NCBI GenBank assembly: GCA_904420445.1
Contig: CAJFVJ010000002.1
Coordinates: 62,001-126,000 of the forward strand
DNA: 64,000 nt
Source: Candidatus Adamsella avium
GTDB taxonomy: Bacteria > Cyanobacteriota > Vampirovibrionia > Gastranaerophilales > CAJFVJ01
Reading direction: 5' to 3'
Shown piece after piece: positions 45,425-46,440 of the stretch. How positions within the stretch are numbered: the stretch's first letter is position 1; each line of letters begins with the position of its first letter. A program made the position numbers and the translations under genes. Under the pieces are notes generated by a model that was not told where the DNA came from, made no database searches, and worked only from the letters and a program-made list of their open reading frames with translations.

Positions 45425-46440
45425 ATGGAATTAAGAAAGCAAAAAATAGATTATATAACGTTTATACAATCATTAGCTGTAACATTGGTTGTTATAGGAC
45501 ATTCTTTCCCGAAAGAAATTTTGACTGATTCTCTTCCTGCTTGGGCAGCTTGCATAAGAAGTTTAATTTATTCTTTTCATATGCCGTTGTTTTTTGTACT
45601 TGCAGGTTTTTTGTTTGTATATTCTTTTGAGAAAAAGGGACTTGGTAGTTTTAAAGAATTTTTTATAAAAAAGTTTAACAGGCTGATTATTCCTTATATA
45701 GCAGTAGGTAGTGTTGCGTATTGTTTAAAAACTTTTATTTTTAACAGTTTTGCTTACAGACCGTCAACACCTTCTGCTCTATTTTATTTAAAATCAATGC
45801 TTTATCCCTTGAGTAATCCGAATATTTATTTGTGGTTTTTACCGACTATTTTTATAGTATTTTTGATTTTTTATTTCCTTGTCGGAAGGAAAAAATATAT
45901 TGTTCCAATATTTGTTTTTTCTTTGATGCTTTCTGTTTTATCAGATAATATATCAATATCTTTTTTGAATATACAGGGAGTTCTTTATTATATATTTTAT
46001 TTTGTATGCGGAATAATGATTTTTTATTATAAAAATAAATTGTTTGATTTATTTAAAAATAAGTTTTTTATACTTACTACTCTATCTATCTATCTATCTA
46101 TCTATCTATCTATCTATCTATCTATCTATCTGCGATTTCGTCGGATATTGTTAAAATACCGCTTGCTTTGTGCGGGATAGTACTGTCTTTTTCTATGGCA
46201 TTAATATGTTCTGATAAAAATTATAAATTTTTGTGGGGAATTCTTGACGGGTGGTATTATCAGATTTATTTATTGTCATGGTTTGCTCAGACAGGTTTGC
46301 GGATATTTTATCAAATAAATCTAATTAGCTACTATACTTGTGTGATTATTATGATTTTAGGTGCATTTTTATTTTCTTTTTTAATGATTAAAATAATTGC
46401 AAATTATTTTCCGAGATTAAAAATTTTTATAGGTATGTAG
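45425..46440 (+). CDS. Acyltransferase family 3 membrane protein, phase-OFF by tetranucleotide repeat
   Basis: An integral-membrane acyltransferase-3 (OafA/NodX-like O-acetyltransferase) interrupted in frame by 12 tandem TCTA units at 46081-46131. The first part (45425-46180) begins KQKIDYITFIQSLAVTLVVIGHSF, the family N-terminus with its conserved histidine, and has SFHMPLFFVLAGFLF and several helices. The repeat encodes L-S-I-Y units; the frame then terminates after 22 novel residues. The downstream frame (46168-46440) encodes the missing C-terminal helices. With 13 or 10 units the reading frame would continue unbroken to give about 339 residues. The likely role is reversible O-acylation of a surface glycan. 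Confidence 0.85.
46081..46131 (+). repeat. Tetranucleotide microsatellite (TCTA)12 inside the acyltransferase gene
   Basis: Exactly 12 TCTA units followed by TCT. The tract length is not a multiple of three, so gain or loss of a unit shifts frame. It is the longest simple repeat in the window and a classic slipped-strand contingency pattern. Confidence 0.97.

Follow-up and report, generated by a model that had tools for sequence, protein, structure and literature searches.

The best-known examples of repeat-driven phase variation come from a small number of pathogens and commensals in culture. The oafA gene of Haemophilus influenzae is described as encoding a phase-variable lipooligosaccharide O-acetyltransferase (Fox et al. 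2005, cited in PMC9558356). Campylobacter jejuni possesses 18–39 phase-variable genes per genome at a cut-off of 7 G/C (PMC6321876), and in Bifidobacterium breve a pilus switch has been followed by deep sequencing (PMC9187656). The locus described here belongs to an uncultured lineage. It lies in a stretch of 64,000 nucleotides from Candidatus Adamsella avium (hereafter the window), and consists of an acyltransferase-3 gene interrupted by a tetranucleotide tract.

The TCTA tract and its reading frames

The tract (46081–46131, forward strand) comprises 12 perfect TCTA units followed by TCT, 51 bases inside the acyltransferase-3 gene, exactly as the first-pass annotation had read it. It is positioned about 65% into the gene and encodes L-S-I-Y repeats within a transmembrane helix predicted by hydropathy. 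With 12 units it lies well within the range considered hypermutable, for which five or more tetranucleotide units have been used as the threshold (PMC6321876), and both the frame arithmetic and the homology of the downstream frame place it where a switch would be expected. No other TCTA run of at least five units was found in the 2.1-Mb genome, and runs of at least six units turned up in four of the order's 383 genomes; the sister species has one more, in another rotation. Given this rarity, the TCTA tract of the window gene is not a chance occurrence.

All three frames of the repeat translate to S-I-Y-L and are free of stop codons; the opposite strand has TAG. The tract is thus always translated, and the frame in which it is left decides the outcome. 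As sequenced, the ORF (45425–46180, forward strand; ORF list and PF01757 match) runs through the L-S-I-Y repeats to a stop, giving an OFF form of 251 aa; this agrees with the earlier description except that the repeat is followed by about 16 novel residues and not by 22. The C-terminal part of the enzyme (46132–46440, forward strand) lies in a shifted frame, as had been proposed and as the frame arithmetic and the homologues discussed below bear out. The number of units alone was varied by script from 5 to 18 and the protein length computed. The frames are joined at 7 units (331 aa), 10 units (335 aa), 13 units (339 aa) and 16 units (343 aa), with termination at 46440 for 10, 13 and 16 units. 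The first-pass annotation had given 10 or 13 units and a protein of about 339 residues, to which the openings at 7 and 16 units are to be added. The remaining lengths tried yield proteins of 233–259 aa, among them 11 units (241 aa) and 14 units (245 aa), the latter being an early stop that had been correctly anticipated.

We consider it likely that the acyltransferase-3 gene is a phase-variable contingency gene operated by (TCTA)n. Slipped-strand mispairing within the tract would add or remove units. Lengths of 7, 10, 13 or 16 units would allow the whole membrane enzyme to be made, and at other lengths the protein would stop soon past the repeat and lack its last transmembrane helices. The 12 units as sequenced would represent an OFF state, one unit away from ON. 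The tract presumably changes its length frequently; among the 383 genomes of the order, no relative holds this gene together with its tract and no TCTA length variant was seen. A length miscall, with a true tract of 10 or 13 units and a gene that is simply expressed, appears very unlikely. Against an error of this kind, the 51 bases of the tract are contained in ordinary short reads, and base calling copes better with a perfect 4-base unit than with a homopolymer. In its favor, assemblies are error-prone at repeat tracts, a consensus hides mixed lengths, and deep sequencing can yield tract lengths other than those stored in databases (PMC9187656).

Family affiliation and conservation of the downstream frame

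The OFF form affiliates with PF01757 (E value 6e-19, 68.7 bits over residues 9–232), as does the 13-unit form (63.2 bits over residues 9–317), the curated cut-off being 31. Simple hydropathy indicated nine transmembrane segments in the 13-unit form and seven to nine in its homologues, compared with ten helices for the family. Acyltransferase-3 proteins carry the motif R-x10-H in helix 1 (PMC9833829). In the window gene the corresponding residues are Q15-x10-H26 (45425–45502), and Q likewise replaces R in all five homologues; the exchange appears to be a trait of the subfamily. The full-length acyltransferase is presumably active, although this is less certain because Q replaces R in the motif. 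Its family suggests surface-glycan acylation, and the enzyme probably decorates surface sugars.

A search of the 383 genomes retrieved five homologues, all from other genera, four with 47–50% identity and one with 36%. All five are uninterrupted and lack a long tract. The first-pass annotation had named a downstream frame lacking acyltransferase homology as one of the outcomes that would speak against switching; instead, the C-termini of these five intact proteins match the shifted frame (phmmer E values between 1e-37 and 4e-20, calculated for this small set). The C-terminal part (residues 241–339 of the 13-unit form) shares 42–59% identity with the five homologues and the N-terminal part 35–50%. 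The downstream frame is genuine coding sequence, and its homology, together with a conservation equal to that of the N-terminal part, points to an OFF state of recent date or of intermittent occurrence. Apart from the tract the gene is free of lesions, and divergence past the tract is not in excess, which indicates that the gene has been OFF only for a short time or with interruptions. Hence it has the look of a live gene or of one closed only recently, and an old pseudogene was set aside as the principal reading since the shifted frame is conserved like the rest of the gene.

The helix region is shortest in two of the homologues (325 and 328 aa), where it falls 8–10 residues short of that in the 13-unit form; four units would give 327 aa. 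The tract seems to have arisen by later expansion within a transmembrane helix, and the repeating L-S-I-Y peptide may well be compatible with the fold of such a helix. The homologues also bear on programmed frameshifting, by which some full-length protein would be obtained from the 12-unit form. The repeat is stop-free in any frame, so that the downstream frame would be reached by a shift at any point of the 51 bases, and the uniform poly-G tracts in pilin leaders of the order (see below) hint at something similar there. The homologues, however, need no frameshifting, and we regard it as extremely unlikely for this gene.

The segment 45373–46446, corresponding to exactly this gene, is missing from the sister species (G001), in which the flanks are 91.6% and 87% identical to those of the window and lie 5 bp apart, a clean empty site. 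Both neighbors are conserved in G001: a member of the D-isomer 2-hydroxyacid dehydrogenase family upstream (44266–45348, reverse strand) and an HNH-domain protein downstream (46441–47397, reverse strand). As both are encoded on the other strand, the frameshift affects no downstream gene and the putative switch would act on this gene alone. With the exception of one DegT-type aminotransferase, the neighborhood is not a glycan cluster. A consensus scan for a promoter or terminator near the gene returned nothing above shuffled sequences. Outside the order, a scan of genome contigs revealed no close orthologue, the best segments having 37% identity and coming from mixed phyla. Phage-borne cargo was considered as an origin and rejected, as phage records gave only four weak partial matches.

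The gene is accessory, the gene or a close homologue being present in six of the 383 genomes, this one included. Such a distribution would also fit a recently broken pseudogene: a dispensable gene, acquired horizontally, that was closed by the expansion of a neutral microsatellite and has its decay still ahead. Neutral tetranucleotide runs, which occur in the genome of the window and in another genome of the order (G152), point in the same direction. We nonetheless judge this reading improbable: the gene has no further lesion and no extra divergence past the tract, and the same genus contains a second tract-bearing acyltransferase-3 gene that is in frame, as well as a gene pair whose open and closed states depend on the tract.

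Repeat tracts elsewhere in the genus and order

The second acyltransferase-3 gene came to light through a DNA search with the window locus, which hit a TCTA tract of six units in G001, set in the ON frame. It is a different gene (372 aa, PF01757 E value 2e-23), with a MurJ-like flippase on one side and a glycosyltransferase on the other, and the position of its tract is unrelated to that in the window gene. Its homologues in the order are free of tracts, no orthologue was found in the genome of the window, and the remaining acyltransferase-3 genes of both genomes contain no tract. Because the three acyltransferase-3 genes make up only about 0.16% of the G001 genome, we estimate that a second tract is unlikely to have landed in this family by chance.

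The genome of the window (G000) contains two poly-G/C tracts of at least 10 bases, against an expectation of about 0.13 under a first-order Markov model. One, a C12/G12 tract (C1:181932–181943; L164:1932–1943), closes an acetyltransferase-like gene of the hexapeptide type. Its downstream frame is matched to this type with a weak Pfam value (0.001), a protein of about 258 aa would result from 10 or 13 G, and no orthologue was found in G001. The other, a G11 tract (C1:520548–520558; L185), closes a radical-SAM gene adjoined by a glycosyltransferase. In the G001 orthologue (C1:69667; L191) the tract is G10 and the frame is open, with 328 aa. This single G is the sole indel over 987 bp, so that a repeat tract of the genus differs by one unit between an open and a closed gene with nothing else broken. 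The pair is the best evidence that switching by repeat length happens in the genus. Taken together, the homologous downstream frame without decay, the TCTA acyltransferase of the sister species and the G10/G11 pair support the first-pass interpretation of the window gene as a contingency locus.

Poly-G tracts of at least 10 were detected in 184 of the 238 genomes of the order that are at least 90% complete, and several genomes hold more than 100. One run of 48 G (G160) is a probable artefact, and raw poly-G counts are hence upper bounds. In five genomes of one genus (G108, G178, G123, G227 and G240; L220–L259), poly-G tracts of 9–11 bases are dense in genes of the surface-glycan and pilin-like kinds; their lengths are mixed, and about half are closed. 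Within 401 kb around the tracts of these genomes, 52 of the 75 tracts fall in reading frames of at least 180 residues, 24 being open and 28 closed as sequenced. Pfam matches of the tract genes include epimerase, cytidylyltransferase, glycosyltransferase, FkbM methyltransferase, TupA-type ATP-grasp, radical-SAM and pilin.

A different pattern was observed in three other genomes (G042, G014 and G017; L270–L289), where poly-G occurs almost only in the leaders of type IV pilin-like genes. Of 19 such tracts, 17 are out of frame. Their length is uniform within each genome (10, 13 and 10, respectively), a pattern that free slippage would not lead one to expect. Uniform and mostly out-of-frame pilin-leader tracts may point to control beyond simple slippage. 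In view of their behavior and of the probable 48-G artefact, the use of poly-G counts as a direct count of switches was abandoned. On balance, we lean towards regarding the TCTA acyltransferase as a member of a large, undescribed repeat-driven repertoire in surface-glycan and type IV pilin-like genes of the order, amounting in some genomes to about 100 tracts per 2 Mb.

The repeat background was surveyed in a 760-kb sample. An (ATAA)14 run (G000 C3:509771–509826; L155:9771–9826) begins with the stop codon of a gene whose cysteine-rich product looks exported, and an (ATAG)7 run in G152 lies at a gene end; in neither case is a frame effect possible. The existence of such frame-neutral runs means that tetranucleotide expansion alone is no proof of function. 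In two other genomes, an (AGAT)10 tract (L107:6684–6723) precedes the gene for a pilin-like, serine-rich protein by about 40 bp, and an (ATAG)12 tract (L108:7365–7412) precedes a gene for a 743-aa coiled-coil protein by about 66 bp. These upstream tracts could modulate transcription through the promoter or act in the 5'-UTR. A T15 run in the genome of the window (C3:16158–16172; L152) is found close to where a gene for a family-2 glycosyltransferase begins, immediately before a second possible start codon. Both species also share a dispersed repeat of about 150 bp, with copies 80–91% alike (L181:1936–2088 and about 25 places in G001). It matches some copies in reverse sense as well, like a small palindromic mobile element.

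Comparison with described systems

Our literature search yielded no publication dealing with phase variation in bacteria of the Melainabacteria type. Judging by the literature searched, the lineage is new; the mechanism itself has been described before. The tract-bearing acyltransferase of the sister species and the pair of open and closed genes differing by one base make surface switching testable from metagenome reads, and many surface genes that seem broken in such genomes may be switched off and not dead.

The closest known case is oafA, likewise an acyltransferase-3 gene with ON and OFF states tied, in the account given in PMC9558356, to a tetranucleotide repeat. The window gene differs from it in lineage and in sequence, its unit is TCTA and located about 65% into the gene, and its switching is deduced from sequence. 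The poly-G tracts of the order resemble those of Campylobacter (PMC6321876), where many tracts lie in genes for surface structures; in contrast to the window tract, these are mononucleotide tracts. Similar to the switch proposed here, that of B. breve (PMC9187656) turns ON and OFF by replication slippage in a gut commensal, but it acts through a poly-G tract on sortase-dependent pili and belongs to an unrelated lineage.
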